Shown here piece after piece: positions 33,543-46,886 of a stretch of DNA of 64,000 nucleotides. Below the pieces are notes generated by a model. That model searched no databases. It was not told where the DNA came from and worked only from the letters and a program-made list of their open reading frames with translations. The position numbers and the translations under genes were made by a program. This DNA comes from Trichococcus shcherbakoviae (GTDB taxonomy: Bacteria > Bacillota > Bacilli > Lactobacillales > Aerococcaceae). The stretch spans positions 124,001 to 188,000 of the forward strand of contig NZ_OY762653.1 of assembly GCF_963666195.1 (NCBI RefSeq). The letters run 5' to 3'. Each line of letters opens with the position of its first letter. Position 1 is the stretch's first letter.

Positions 33543-33559
33543 TACAGTAATATTGAAGG

Positions 33560-34226
<667 letters not shown>

Positions 34227-42518: not shown

Positions 42519-42579
42519 GTTTTGCGGAATGGAAACGGTAAGTAATATGAGAATACCTCATCTTTTTCTAATCCTACTC

Positions 42580-42608
42580 TTGACTTTGTTTTTCCCATTG
42601 GTTACTAT
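42580..42608 (+). promoter_or_regulatory. Promoter of the trpX leader transcript
   Basis: TTGACT (42580-42585), 17-nt spacer, TACTAT (42603-42608). Transcription would start near 42615, 25 nt before the leader ORF. Confidence 0.7.
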
Positions 42609-42639
42609 TAAATTATCAATCAAAAAGGAGCAATCAAGC

Positions 42640-42702
42640 ATGTCTGCATATACTCGCGTTTCCAAATTGAATTTTTTCGATTGGCAAAGCCACGTGGAGT
42701 AG
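42640..42702 (+). CDS. 20-aa leader peptide with a single Trp codon upstream of trpX
   Basis: ATG 42640 has AAAAAGGAG about 9 nt upstream. The peptide is short, carries the only Trp codon at residue 15 (42682-42684) in the context FFDWQSHVE, and ends five codons later at TAG 42700-42702. An attenuator follows. The low Trp density and distance from the attenuator stem (about 45 nt) do not fit simple E. coli trp-type stalling; arrest at the stop codon, as in TnaC, is an alternative. Confidence 0.6.
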   Translation: MSAYTRVSKLNFFDWQSHVE

Positions 42703-42730
42703 GTTGTTCTTTGTGACGTATTGATTGTCC

Positions 42731-42872
42731 GTAGATACAGCCTCAGATGAAACATCTGAACAGTATCTATGTGGATTACTAAAGATATTTAAGCCGCCAC
42801 ATAGACAATATCGGTCTGTGTGGCGTTTTCTGTATTCAGCCGCCATACTTGGTTCAGATGGCGGCTTTTTTA
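42731..42872 (+). promoter_or_regulatory. Two-stage attenuator upstream of trpX
   Basis: Segment 1 (42731-42749) pairs with segment 2 (42753-42770). Segment 2 (42766-42774) can instead pair perfectly with segment 3 (42797-42805), which would block terminator one (arms 42795-42806 and 42814-42825, weak T4). Terminator two follows (arms 42838-42846 and 42858-42866, then T6), 47 nt before trpX. Its right arm also matches 42791-42799, so long-range competition is possible. No T-box motif is present. Confidence 0.75.
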
Positions 42873-42918
42873 TCACCTTTTTACAGAATAAGAAGCAGAA
42901 AAATTGGAGGAATCAGAA

Positions 42919-43962
42919 ATGAAAAAATTATTCAGAGCACGCGCAAGTATCTTGACCCTAATGGCAGCGACAGTATTGATGGCATGCGGCAATTCGGATG
43001 CCAATAATTCGGACACCTCTTCGGACGGTTCCGCTGCAAGCTCCACCGACAGCATCAATCCGGATTTGCCTTACATCGGCATCATGCAATTGACGACCCA
43101 TCCGGCACTCGATCAGATCGGGGAAGGCATCATCGACCAATTGGAAGAAGCCGGGTATGTGGACGGCGAAACGGCAACGATCGATTTCCAGAATGCACAG
43201 GGCGACCAGTCAAATATGCAGTCGATAGCGGAGCGGTTCGTTTCGAATGATGCGGATATCATGATCGGCATCGCTACCCCTGCAGCACAAGCTTTGGCGA
43301 ATGCTTCCAGCGATATTCCGATCATTTTGGGGGCCATCACGGATCCGGTGGCTGCCAGTCTTGTGGATTCAATGGAAAAACCGGGCGGCAACATCACCGG
43401 CGTCAGCGACAAGACTCCGGCCCGCGACCAGTTTATTTTGATTCAACAGTTGCTTCCTGATGCCAAAACAATCGGTATCCTTTACTCATCCGCAGAGGAC
43501 AATTCAATCAGTTCCGCTAAAGAGGCTGAAGAAATTGCTGCTTCATTAGGCTTGAAGACAGTCACGAAAACAGTCACTTCAACGAACGATATCGCACAGG
43601 TCGCTGAAAGTCTTGCTTCTGAAGTGGATGCCATCTACGTGCCGACAGACAACACCATCGCAAGCGGCTTAGCGACATTGATCCCGGTTGCGGATGCTTA
43701 CAACATCCCGGTGTTCCCTGCTGTTGATACGATGGTAGAAGAAGGCGGGTTGGCGACGATCGGTTTGAATCAATACGCGCTGGGTACCCAAACCGGAGCT
43801 GTGGCAGCCGATGTTCTGGCTGGAGCCGATCCCGCTACTTACCCTGTACAATACGCGACCGGTATTCAACTGGTCATCAATCGAGCTAAAGCCGATCAAT
43901 TGGGCATCACGATTCCTGATGATATCGCACAGAATGCTATCTTTGTAGGTGAAGGAGAGTAA
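42919..43962 (+). CDS. trpX: Tryptophan-type ABC transporter substrate-binding lipoprotein
   Basis: A 347-aa lipoprotein with a lipobox VLMAC, a Ser/Asp-rich linker, and a periplasmic-binding fold of the PF04392 class. It resembles streptococcal TrpX over its whole length (GIMQLTTHPALD, FQNAQGDQSNM, MIGIATPAAQALA, ILGAITDPVAA, VSDKTPA, VPTDNTIASG). That family is linked to tryptophan uptake, but substrate is inferred. ATG 42919 follows GGAGG. First gene of trpXYZ. Confidence 0.88.
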   Translation: MKKLFRARASILTLMAATVLMACGNSDANNSDTSSDGSAASSTDSINPDLPYIGIMQLTTHPALDQIGEGIIDQLEEAGYVDGETATIDFQNAQGDQSNMQSIAERFVSNDADIMIGIATPAAQALANASSDIPIILGAITDPVAASLVDSMEKPGGNITGVSDKTPARDQFILIQQLLPDAKTIGILYSSAEDNSISSAKEAEEIAASLGLKTVTKTVTSTNDIAQVAESLASEVDAIYVPTDNTIASGLATLIPVADAYNIPVFPAVDTMVEEGGLATIGLNQYALGTQTGAVAADVLAGADPATYPVQYATGIQLVINRAKADQLGITIPDDIAQNAIFVGEGE

Positions 43963-43967
43963 ATTTA

Positions 43968-44864
43968 ATGAACATGATTATTTCCGCCGTCTCCCAAGGG
44001 TTGCTTTGGAGTATTCTGGCACTGGGTTTATTTGTAAGTTTCCGTATATTGGATTTGGCTGACATGACTACCGAGGGTTCGTTTCCCCTCGGTGCGGCTG
44101 TCGCTGTTCAAGCCATCACTTTAGGCGCCAATCCTTATATCGCTATTATATTTGCCATCATTGCCGGCAGTTCAGCTGGATTGATAACTGGTTTTTTGAT
44201 CACAAAATTGCAGATTCCCAGCCTTTTGGCGGGTATTCTGACGATGACTGGCCTCTATTCCATCAACCTGCGCGTGATGGGTAGAGCAAACATCAGTCTG
44301 TTGGGCAAGGATACGATTTTCACCGTTTTCCAAAACATGAATCTCCCAAGACATTTCGACACGATTACGTTGGGCTTGTTGGTAGTCGTATTGATTATTG
44401 GGCTCTACGTCATCTTTTTCAAAACGGAATTCGGTCAAGCTGTCATCGCGACAGGTGACAATGAAGCGATGGCCCGCTCATTGGGTATTTCCACAAATAC
44501 GATGAAAATCGTCGGCCTGATGATCTCGAACGGTATCGTCGCATTGGCTGGATCCATCATCGCTCAGGACAATGGCTACGCCGACATCAGCATGGGTATC
44601 GGAACGATCGTCATCGGTCTGGCTTCGATCATCATCGGCGAAGTATTGTTCACTAATGTTTCTTTCAAAATGCGTTTGGTTTGCCTGATGCTCGGTTCGG
44701 TTCTGTACCGTCTGATTATGGTGATGGTATTGGAAGCAGGCATGAACCCGAATGACTTCAAGTTGATTTCAGCTGTATTGTTGACCTTCTTCTTGGCGTT
44801 GCCGAAAATCAAGGAAACCTACTACATGTACTCTTTGCGAAAGAAGGTGAAGCGAAATGATTAA
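43968..44864 (+). CDS. trpY: Tryptophan-type ABC transporter permease
   Basis: A 298-aa membrane protein with about eight hydrophobic helices and the BPD_transp_2 pattern (FRILDLADMTTEGSFPLGAAV near residue 26, GDNEAMARSLG near 165). Homologous permeases move amino acids or similar small solutes. It starts 5 nt after trpX and overlaps trpZ by 8 nt. Confidence 0.88.
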   Translation: MNMIISAVSQGLLWSILALGLFVSFRILDLADMTTEGSFPLGAAVAVQAITLGANPYIAIIFAIIAGSSAGLITGFLITKLQIPSLLAGILTMTGLYSINLRVMGRANISLLGKDTIFTVFQNMNLPRHFDTITLGLLVVVLIIGLYVIFFKTEFGQAVIATGDNEAMARSLGISTNTMKIVGLMISNGIVALAGSIIAQDNGYADISMGIGTIVIGLASIIIGEVLFTNVSFKMRLVCLMLGSVLYRLIMVMVLEAGMNPNDFKLISAVLLTFFLALPKIKETYYMYSLRKKVKRND

Positions 44865-45651
44865 TCAAGAAGCGATGTTGACGATGTCACATGTCTCCAA
44901 AACGTTCTACCCTGGTTCACCCAATCAGGTCAACGCACTGCAGGACGTCAATCTGACGGTCAGACAAGGCGATTTCATCACCTTGGTCGGAGGCAACGGA
45001 GCCGGCAAATCAACCTTGTTGAATGCCATTTCCGGAAACTTCCTGCCTGATACAGGCGACATCATCGTGAACGGACAGAATGTTACATTCCTGAAAGAAG
45101 ATAAGCGCGCGCCATACATCAGTCGGGTCTTCCAGGATCCAAAAATGGGGACCGCTCCACGGATGACGGTGCAGGAAAACTTATCCTTGGCATACCGCAG
45201 AGGCCAAAAACGGACGCTGCGCTTCGGAACTTCGCATGAAGAAAAAGCATTCTTCAAAGAGGAACTGAAGAAATTGGGCTTAGGCCTTGAAAACCGGATG
45301 GGCTCCGACATCGGGCTGTTGTCCGGTGGTCAGAGACAAGCCATCGCTCTGCTGATGGCAACGATGAAAAGACCGGACATCTTGCTGTTGGATGAACATA
45401 CGGCAGCGTTGGATCCGAAAACGGCTAAATTGGTTCTCGAATTGACGAATCAACAAGTCCTCGACAACAACCTGACCAGCATCATGATCACCCACAACCT
45501 GCAGGACGCGATCCAGTACGGTAATCGCATGCTGGTGTTGCATCACGGTCAAATCATGAAGGATTATGACGCTGAAATGAAAAAATCATTGACGCCCGAA
45601 AAAATATTTGCTGAACTTCAGGAGTTATCCATCCAAGACATCTTGGTCTGA
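44857..45651 (+). CDS. trpZ: Tryptophan-type ABC transporter ATP-binding protein
   Basis: A 264-aa ATPase with Walker A GGNGAGKST (near 46-54), signature LSGGQRQA (near 149), Walker B ILLLDEHTA and switch His ITHNL. All catalytic residues are present. It overlaps the permease by 8 nt, completing a three-gene importer. Confidence 0.9.
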   Translation: MINQEAMLTMSHVSKTFYPGSPNQVNALQDVNLTVRQGDFITLVGGNGAGKSTLLNAISGNFLPDTGDIIVNGQNVTFLKEDKRAPYISRVFQDPKMGTAPRMTVQENLSLAYRRGQKRTLRFGTSHEEKAFFKEELKKLGLGLENRMGSDIGLLSGGQRQAIALLMATMKRPDILLLDEHTAALDPKTAKLVLELTNQQVLDNNLTSIMITHNLQDAIQYGNRMLVLHHGQIMKDYDAEMKKSLTPEKIFAELQELSIQDILV

Positions 45652-46578: not shown

Positions 46579-46607
46579 TTGACAAAAGTGTCTATGCGCG
46601 TTATTAT
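46579..46607 (+). promoter_or_regulatory. pyrBC promoter
   Basis: TTGACA (46579-46584), 17-nt spacer, TATTAT (46602-46607). Confidence 0.75.
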
Positions 46608-46627
46608 TTTAGCAACAGAATGAATTT

Positions 46628-46729
46628 CCTTTAACGAGAGTCCAGAGAGACTACTAAGGAGCATATCAGGCGTACTGCGCCTTCATCATGACTTTATGCC
46701 CATTGTCTCTTTGACCATGGGCTTTTTTT
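46628..46729 (+). promoter_or_regulatory. PyrR attenuator 1 of pyrB leader
   Basis: The PyrR loop AGTCCAGAGAGACT (about 46639-46652) sits within a CCTTT..AAGG-type stem. It is followed by a terminator with arms GCCCAT (46698-46703) and ATGGGC (46717-46722) and T7. Confidence 0.88.
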
Positions 46730-46770
46730 CTGGAGATTTATCCTATCGCACAATTTAATAGCGAATGTGA

Positions 46771-46886
46771 GACTTTAAGGGGGTCCTGTGAGGCCCGCAA
46801 GGTCACTAGATGGCCGCTCTGTATCCAAATATGGGAGCGGCTGGCCTAGAACCTGAAGAACTTACAAATTCTTCGGGTTCTTTTTG
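46771..46886 (+). promoter_or_regulatory. PyrR attenuator 2 of pyrB leader
   Basis: A second PyrR-like loop GGTCCTGTGAGGCC (about 46781-46795) with the flanking CTTTAAGG and GCAAGG pairing. An internal hairpin GCCGCTC / GAGCGGC lies around 46813-46840. A strong terminator follows: arms AGAACCTGAAGAA (46848-46860) and TTCTTCGGGTTCT (46869-46881) with T5. Two attenuators in a row would sharpen pyrimidine control of pyrBC. Confidence 0.85.

Follow-up and report, generated by a model that had tools for sequence, protein, structure and literature searches.

The leader upstream of the trpXYZ operon of Trichococcus shcherbakoviae is very probably a ribosome-mediated transcription attenuator that would sense charged tRNA-Trp through the Trp codon of a short leader peptide. 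The stretch of DNA in which it lies (64,000 nucleotides, positions 124,001 to 188,000 of contig NZ_OY762653.1; hereafter the window, whose own numbering is used throughout) belongs to a 2.93-Mb single-contig genome, and the leader analysed here occupies window positions 42580-42918. Three properties differ from what a classical attenuator would offer: 1) a stalled ribosome is predicted to expose an RNA segment instead of covering the first stem, and the leader's coding end is itself a pairing arm; 2) two terminators appear to work in relay; and 3) the regulatory codons seem exchangeable.

Architecture of the trpXYZ leader

The leader spans about 300 nt between a promoter-like site and trpX (Table 1). 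An original prediction, made from the letters alone, had described a good promoter, a 20-codon ORF with a ribosome site and one Trp codon, and a double attenuator with mutually exclusive hairpins. The ORF, its Shine-Dalgarno site and its Trp codon are present as described. The promoter stands in part: the site keeps its position in all six correctly oriented rows of the same genus (reading TTGACA in L014), whereas as a lone match it is no more than chance would give, with 11 such sites against 10.4 expected. The closest named relatives of TrpX belong to Trichococcus, with identities of 95-98% at eight full-length loci (T. palustris excluded) and of 81% to T. palustris. A contig titled Sedimentibacter sp. 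SX930 (MUZD01000002.1, L037) encodes a TrpX 97% identical to that of the window and is probably a mislabelled Trichococcus assembly.

Table 1. Features of the leader and of the operon downstream, in window coordinates
Feature	Position	Strand	Basis
Promoter-like site TTGACT-17-TACTAT	42580..42608	+	Motif scan
Shine-Dalgarno AAGGAG of leader peptide	42625..42630	+	SD-like site in 99/100 elements
Leader ORF MSAYTRVSKLNFFDWQSHVE*, 20 codons	42640..42702	+	Trp-frame ORF in 99/100 elements
Single Trp codon (W15), regulatory	42682..42684	+	RNA segments hold their distance to W15
Segment 0, CCACGTGGA, within the ORF, able to pair with segment 3	42690..42698	+	Pairing tests, fold
Segment 1, AGGTTGT, overlapping the stop codon, able to pair with 42737-42743	42701..42707	+	Pairing tests, fold
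Segment 2, left arm of hairpin 1 (with segment 3) or partner of segment 1	42730..42743	+	Fold, pairing tests
Segment 3, GTATCTATGTGG, partner options segments 0, 2 and 4	42763..42774	+	Pairing tests, fold
Antiterminator, 42766-42774 (segment 3) with 42797-42805 (segment 4)	42766..42805	+	Exact match, pairing tests
Terminator one: segment 4 (42795-42806), segment 5 (42814-42825), TTTT	42795..42829	+	Terminator scan, fold
Terminator two: segment 6 (42838-42848), segment 7 (42858-42866), T run	42838..42872	+	Fold
trpX, Trp ABC transporter substrate-binding protein	42919..43962	+	NF041285, 422 bits (cut-off 390)
trpY-like permease	43968..44864	+	ABC permease matches, under the family cut-offs; named by position
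trpZ-like ATPase	44857..45651	+	ABC ATPase matches, under the family cut-offs; named by position

Shuffled sequences fold at -61.1 kcal/mol (sd 5.0) and the leader at -87.5 kcal/mol (z -5.3; 0/200 shuffles as low). In the predicted structure, hairpin 1 is formed by pairing of 42730-42738 with 42763-42771, with an inner helix of 42743-42749 and 42753-42759. The alternative antiterminator is an exact 9-bp match between TCTATGTGG and CCACATAGA, which excludes both hairpin 1 and terminator one, and its earlier description proved right letter for letter. Both predicted terminators are also there; terminator two was found by the fold and is absent from the terminator scan, whose loop limit was 8. 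The right arm of terminator two had been said to match 42791-42799 as well, and the duplex so formed comes to -16.5 kcal/mol. Its left arm, segment 6, has an alternative partner in segment 5 (42818-42825 with 42841-42848; 8 bp and -13.9 kcal/mol in the window). The original prediction had missed two pairing segments, namely segment 0 inside the ORF and segment 1 at and after the stop codon (42700-42702).

The absence of a T-box was borne out, with no such Rfam match at the gathering score in the window and none at E up to 1 within 42540-42960. The sole Rfam match at the gathering score in the window is a PyrR binding site at 33558-33659. A further leader of about 330 nt at 46579-46881, which has a 13-bp terminator and a promoter resembling the consensus, lies 5' of an aspartate carbamoyltransferase-like gene (by reading); it resembles a pyrimidine attenuator and is without an Rfam match at the gathering score.

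Distribution and conservation of the leader ORF

The same kind of ORF precedes trpX in all 12 same-genus loci compared (L001, L004-L014), and it is also found in related genera and 5' of the genome's own second trpX paralog (L002). A covariance model, R1, was built from 20 elements of relatives. It matched 222 of the 395 genomes of the order Lactobacillales, representing 58 of 80 genera, as well as 65/76 genomes of the family and 15/299 of the class, 12 of those 15 lying in the order. A TrpX-like gene was present at 72 of 80 fetched loci. Elsewhere, Trp-type elements stand upstream of trpB (L189, by TIGR00263; L093, L102, L104 and L106, by reading) or of a trpP-like gene (L192, PF17099). By reading of ORFs, those of L091 and L107 precede an oligopeptide-binding-like protein and PTS-like genes, respectively. 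The elements of L095 and L097 are very like the trpB leader of L093, with no ORF of more than 90 codons in about 1.6 kb downstream, and are perhaps remnants after gene loss.

Comparative tests were run on 100 elements (set A3) from which an antisense row (L025) had been removed before counting; this set and a 39-element set (A5) described below were chosen for breadth from the fetched loci, and are thus non-random and include close relatives. An ORF with start, Shine-Dalgarno site and stop occurs in the Trp frame of 99/100 elements; the counts for the remaining two frames are 1 and 6. The first columns of R1 include TGGCAA, so that the model itself partly accounts for Trp at that position; frame, start and stop were not modelled.

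The 99 leader peptides are 11-25 residues long. W is present in all of them and followed by Q in 92, and two Trp codons are found in 53, three in one and a single one in 45, the window included. The commonest form is W-Q-x-W, and W-Q is mostly followed by x-W or x-H/R/Q. Looking for the peptide context FFDWQ in relatives had been proposed earlier; the search succeeds far beyond the genus, with W-Q and not FFDWQ as the conserved unit. Upstream of the first W no conserved residue was found among the 99 peptides, the best position reaching 34/99. The codon after the first Trp (42685-42687 in the window) is CAA in 93/100 elements, which neither pairing nor the codon model explains. As a predicted ORF, the leader would thus be what an attenuator calls for, a short peptide with codons for the regulated amino acid.

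We also considered whether the leader consists of two plain terminators and an unrelated short ORF, with no translational regulation. The region has 7 terminator-like sites, little more than the 5.4 (sd 2.2) expected by chance, as such a reading would have it. It is nonetheless very improbable in our view, given that the element recurs in 58 of the 80 genera sampled and that ORF frame, spacing and alternative pairings are kept throughout the 100 elements tested.

Alternative pairings are maintained by own partners

To score each pairing, the duplex energy of a segment with its own partner was compared with the energies obtained when partners were dealt among the 100 elements in 60 shuffles. 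Own partners were better in five pairings of the model, with 0/60 shuffles as good: 0:3 (-14.7 versus -12.1 kcal/mol), 1:2 (-15.3 versus -11.3), 2:3 (-13.8 versus -12.0), 3:4 (-13.4 versus -12.1) and 4:5 (-17.9 versus -12.1). Antiterminator and terminator one, 3:4 and 4:5, both use segment 4 and both beat shuffles, and are hence mutually exclusive. No own-partner advantage was seen among the 100 elements for 1:3 (30/60 shuffles as good) or 1:4 (11/60). Two pairs outside the model, 0:2 (-8.1 versus -7.2 kcal/mol) and 0:5 (-10.6 versus -9.8 kcal/mol), beat the shuffles too, by 0.9 and 0.75, an excess that relatedness of the elements may explain.

Column-wise counts over 20 sequences gave a mixed picture. 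Segments 0 and 3 form standard pairs at 88.7%, falling to 29-52% when slid by 1-3 columns, and their covariation score is 0.240 against 0.188 (0/500 shuffles); further pair types were no more than in shuffles (9 versus 9.0; 424/500). The 3:4 helix has 96.1% standard pairs and a covariation score of 0.219 against 0.178 (0/500 shuffles), with pairs changed on both sides no more frequent than in shuffles (1; 462/500). In a fixed-register count (A1), 1:2 is paired at 76%, with no pair changed on both sides and slid versions reaching up to 56%. We ascribe this weak count to the existence of two classes of register; in the duplex test above, 1:2 is supported.

A second terminator was identified by rule in 84/100 elements, and the 16 without one were excluded from the tests that concern it. 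Here, 5:6 is also better with own partners (-11.4 versus -7.8 kcal/mol; 0/60, n=84). The controls 4:6 and 5:7 barely differ from shuffles (5/60 and 12/60, respectively), and 4:7 shows a small difference (-7.4 versus -6.6 kcal/mol; 0/60), both with n=84. When segment 4 was withheld from folding, segment 5 paired with segment 6 in 83/84 elements. Terminator two is thus probably coupled to terminator one in these folds, and its relief by 5:6 pairing is what we infer from the coupling.

RNA segments are anchored at the Trp codon

The stop codon lies +9 to +33 nt from the Trp codon, at +18 in 63/100 elements. In searches without positional limits, and counting from the first base of the Trp codon, segment 0 starts 5-8 nt further on in 77/100 elements and segment 1 starts 15-20 nt further on in 83/100. 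Anchoring was judged from the 37/100 elements in which the stop is not at +18. In these, the start of segment 0 has an sd of 2.8 nt relative to Trp and of 8.5 nt relative to the stop, and that of segment 1 an sd of 3.5 nt and 7.4 nt, respectively; the last paired base of segment 1 is less clear (sd 4.6 versus 6.8). The anchor of the RNA segments is the Trp codon and not the stop. A mechanism that reads the stop is disfavoured, because it would be expected to fix the stop, which instead moves.

This bears on an alternative that had been put forward as realistic, a TnaC-like arrest in which free tryptophan would hold the ribosome at the stop codon, mask segment 1 and switch the operon off at high Trp. 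A leader of the TnaC type has a fixed distance from Trp to stop and conserved residues besides Trp, whereas in the 100 elements the distance varies and the residues preceding Trp do too. The RNA logic would permit such an arrest, in that 79/100 elements take the OFF fold when a ribosome is placed at the stop (see below), and the peptides have an invariant W, followed by Q in 92/99. However, the segments do not track a stop that wanders from 9 to 33 nt past the Trp codon, no position upstream of Trp exceeds 34/99, and 53/99 peptides have two Trp codons. Residues after W-Q sit in segment 0 and co-vary with segment 3: S-H, I-R, S-Q and N-W-R-R differ as peptides and share the same pairing role, segment 0 being the coding end of the leader. 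WQSH was dropped as a candidate arrest motif for the same reason, these residues being the coding side of segment 0. The codons are, moreover, exchanged for Tyr/Phe or Ile/Leu/Val as the downstream genes change. We therefore regard arrest at the stop as improbable, and return to attenuation by a ribosome at the Trp codon.

Predicted folds respond to ribosome position

Each element was folded from an assumed downstream edge of the ribosome to the end of segment 4. With the edge at W+12, which places the Trp codon in the A site, segment 3 pairs mostly with segment 4 (ON) in 87/100 elements and does not in 13/100. The 3:4 fold was predicted in 86/100 and 82/100 elements at edges of +15 and +18, and the result is less clear at +21, where the A site holds the fourth codon (64/100 ON). 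With the stop codon in the A site, 2:3 (OFF) was obtained in 79/100 elements and not in 21/100, and at an edge of W+33 segment 3 pairs with segment 2 in 92/100. Shuffling the region of segment 1 left the 3:4 fold in 68/500 cases. In the window, 8.8 pairs are expected for 3:4 when the ribosome stalls at Trp, and 8.5 for 2:3 when it is at the stop; an edge of stop+15 instead of +12 tips the latter to 3:4 (6.7 versus 4.2 pairs).

In the absence of a ribosome, segment 0 takes segment 3 in 88/100 elements when the transcript ends at segment 3. Once the transcript reaches segment 4 the elements are split, with 3:4 in 49/100, 0:3 in 43/100 and 2:3 in 8/100. In the window it is segment 2 that first takes segment 3 (8.9 pairs), and 3:4 is ahead when segment 4 is present (6.3 versus 4.4).

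The position of the ribosome predicts the fold for simulated transcripts ending at segment 4 only. In equilibrium folds with segment 5 made, no switch was seen in the window, as 4:5 wins at all six ribosome positions tried, and with terminator one complete 4:5 wins in 62/84 elements even when a ribosome is stalled at Trp. The switch must therefore be kinetic, and we assume that it is decided during transcription.

From these folds the following scheme can be proposed. When Trp is short, a ribosome would stall with the Trp codon in its A site, masking segment 0 and leaving segment 1 free. Pairing of segments 1 and 2 would then leave segment 3 free for segment 4 and so pre-empt terminator one, and the released segment 5 would pair with segment 6 and weaken terminator two (ON: 1:2, 3:4, 5:6). 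When Trp is plentiful, the ribosome would reach the stop region and mask segment 1, allowing 2:3 to form and leaving both terminators free to form (OFF: 2:3, 4:5, 6:7). On RNA without a ribosome, segment 3 would be captured before segment 4 is made, by segment 0 in most relatives and by segment 2 in the window, and this early capture would favour OFF if the fold holds until segments 4 and 5 are made. The scheme is conjectural as to whether the ribosome stalls, whether transcripts terminate or read through, how untranslated RNA behaves and whether terminator two is relieved in relay.

The original prediction had held that a ribosome stalled at the Trp codon would sit too far from the first stem to cover it. 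The distance is as stated. Covering that stem is, however, not needed, because a stall at Trp masks segment 0 and leaves segment 1 free, which is the predicted ON state. Its central suggestion of a Trp-sensing leader peptide gains support from the codon-anchored segments and from the modelled response of the fold to ribosome position.

Codon exchange among related elements

Three matches of R1 lack Trp and encode peptides ending ...YYYGYFR*, ...YFYSYFR* and ...FYFSYFR*, each 5' of a TrpX-like paralog. A second model, R2, was built from five elements of this Tyr/Phe type. It matches 187/295 genomes of the order, a count that includes cross-matches to Trp-type elements, and 27/299 genomes of the class, six of which do not belong to the order. 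Apart from the five model loci, 48 loci with R2 matches were inspected, with genes named by reading except where a profile was tested. The gene downstream is TrpX-like in 21, aroE-like in 21, a DAHP synthase in three, an aminotransferase in one and an ilv gene in two. Profiles identified aroE at L224 (TIGR00507, 216.5 versus 200.2), DAHP synthase at L255 (TIGR01361), acetolactate synthase at L222 (TIGR00118) and threonine ammonia-lyase at L243 (TIGR01127). Peptides 5' of aroE read ...LNNYYFSYFR* or close variants, those 5' of DAHP synthase ...RFYFSYF*, and those before the two ilv genes ...LLISVIR* and ...LIISIIR*.

The folding analysis was repeated on 39 R2-type elements, two of them of the Ile/Leu/Val type. 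ON was predicted with the ribosome at the regulatory codon in 37/39 and OFF with the ribosome at the stop in 34/39; without a ribosome, segment 0 takes segment 3 in 39/39 transcripts ending at segment 3 and in 35/39 ending at segment 4. Under a stricter start rule, 5/39 Tyr-type leaders were not found again, though peptides had been listed for those five earlier.

In a tree of 115 substrate-binding proteins (SBPs), 96 with a Trp leader and 18 with a Tyr/Phe leader are separated by a single branch (SH-aLRT 99). Shuffled labels gave a mean of 16.9 leader changes, and 0/500 shuffles were as low as observed. Leader and SBP gene may simply have been inherited together. One Tyr-type paralog (L266) misses the TrpX cut-off, with a score of 324 versus 390, and we predict from the leaders that TrpX paralogs with a Tyr leader are likely Tyr/Phe transporters.

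Three further cases were noted. The third TrpX-like SBP of this genome (L003) groups with the Tyr-leader SBPs and has a different short leader, MQPQTKVPQSHHQ*, running straight into a terminator (by reading). A weak R1 match (L209) has an HHHH leader before hisZ-like and hisG-like genes, with seemingly the same segment chain (by reading). In Enterococcus sulfureus (L044, 4672-8960), a Trp-leader transporter operon is followed by an aroE-like gene with a Tyr/Phe leader, so that both versions of the switch lie near each other.

Relation to known systems

At a lax threshold, the leader matches the Rfam family RF04312, 'trpB' (42728-42835; 42.5 bits, E 9.7e-5), and so falls short of the gathering score of 59. 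Narunsky et al. (2024, PMC11109978) described the trpB motif as a strong riboswitch candidate without a ligand and listed over 900 members, from Firmicutes and Fusobacteria. According to the passage on this motif, it is usually found 5' of an uncharacterised ABC transporter, and a classic attenuator was deemed possible (PMC11109978). That passage makes no mention of a leader peptide, in contrast to the leader ORF seen here; the gene associations it gives, trpB and an ABC transporter, are the same as ours. The architecture is shared as well, in that the window has two hairpins of which the second is an intrinsic terminator, with the antiterminator in the right shoulder of the first. The match spans segment 2 to terminator one, which leaves the leader, segments 0 and 1 and terminator two outside it.

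Seven of the 24 Trp-type loci scanned pass the RF04312 cut-off (L093, L102, L111, L114, L122, L157 and L187), and through R1 the window element, itself below that cut-off, is related to elements that pass. An eighth locus over the cut-off, in G082, was found by RF04312 itself and also has a Trp leader. A scan of 249 genomes of the phylum with RF04312 gave matches at E <= 0.001 in 5 genomes, one of them over the cut-off. Matches outside the order (L269-L271), all below the cut-off, are without such a leader and look like chance terminators.

These observations bear on whether the conserved hairpin is a riboswitch with tryptophan or some other small molecule as its direct ligand, which is the proposal made for the trpB motif. 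Segments 2 and 3 are conserved in sequence, and the motif stands in print as a strong candidate of that kind (PMC11109978). On the other hand, the conserved arms are those common to the alternative pairings, a leader ORF lies at a steady distance in 99/100 elements, and the same RNA with Tyr/Phe codons precedes other genes. Each of the eight loci that reach the RF04312 cut-off has a Trp leader, although seven had been found through R1, so that this amounts to one independent case. Direct binding is, in our estimate, a shade less probable even than arrest at the stop, and leader-peptide attenuation is the reading we retain.

A second family, RF02863 (Enterococcus sRNA 2410), matches the Tyr/Phe version 5' of aroE, in L224 and in E. 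sulfureus L044, where the match lies downstream of the Trp-leader transporter operon; it does not match L266, the other Tyr-type locus scanned. RF02863 is filed as an sRNA gene, whereas here it resembles a leader attenuator with the peptide ...LNNYYFSYFR*.

The trp leader of E. coli has four segments, of which a stalled ribosome covers the first and frees the second. The present element is like it in that a ribosome on a leader peptide with Trp codons would decide between antiterminator and terminator. It is unlike it in that a stall would mask segment 0 and expose segment 1, and in its longer chain with two terminators. Among Bacillota, leader-peptide attenuation by branched-chain amino acids is described for Listeria Rli60 and Staphylococcus aureus ilvD, the former having been tested by mutation and reporters (PMC5864092, PMC5794164). 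Those attenuators respond to other amino acids, and Rli60 is drawn with four segments. The trpXYZ operon of Streptococcus suis is reported to use a T-box, and the same paper reports none for S. pyogenes trpX (PMC9382623). Operon, signal (tRNA-Trp charging) and transcription antitermination would be the same as in the window, but the T-box binds tRNA directly, whereas the window has a leader ORF and no T-box.

For Firmicutes, His leader peptides with runs of the regulated codon have been proposed before hisZ, hisS and his operons (PMC2965389, PMC9413887). L209 is of the same sort; the passages on these leaders do not link them to trp or aro elements. In the 2010 survey among these papers, leader-peptide attenuation was thought unproven outside Proteobacteria and Actinobacteria (PMC2965389). 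In the open-access literature, preprints excluded, we found no paper on a Trp leader or on the present mechanism for trpXYZ.

Implications

Taken jointly, the Trp, Tyr/Phe and Ile/Leu/Val elements could represent one modular attenuator that serves several amino acids, in Lactobacillales as well as in some other Bacilli. It would consist of a domino chain of eight segments with two successive terminators, in which the coding end of the leader is an RNA arm able to hold untranslated RNA in the OFF state, and it would be re-targeted by exchange of codons (Trp, Tyr/Phe, Ile/Leu/Val and perhaps His), which would also explain two Rfam families. We lean only slightly towards this wider reading, and rate it no higher because the untranslated state is split once segment 4 is made.

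If it is true, RF04312, an orphan riboswitch candidate with more than 900 examples in the published account (PMC11109978), would be a translated attenuator, and the search for its ligand could stop. The Enterococcus 'sRNA' RF02863 would likewise be corrected. Codon exchange on one RNA frame would allow the substrates of transporters to be predicted directly, and leader-peptide attenuation would govern Trp and aromatic amino-acid genes in over half the genomes sampled from the order.
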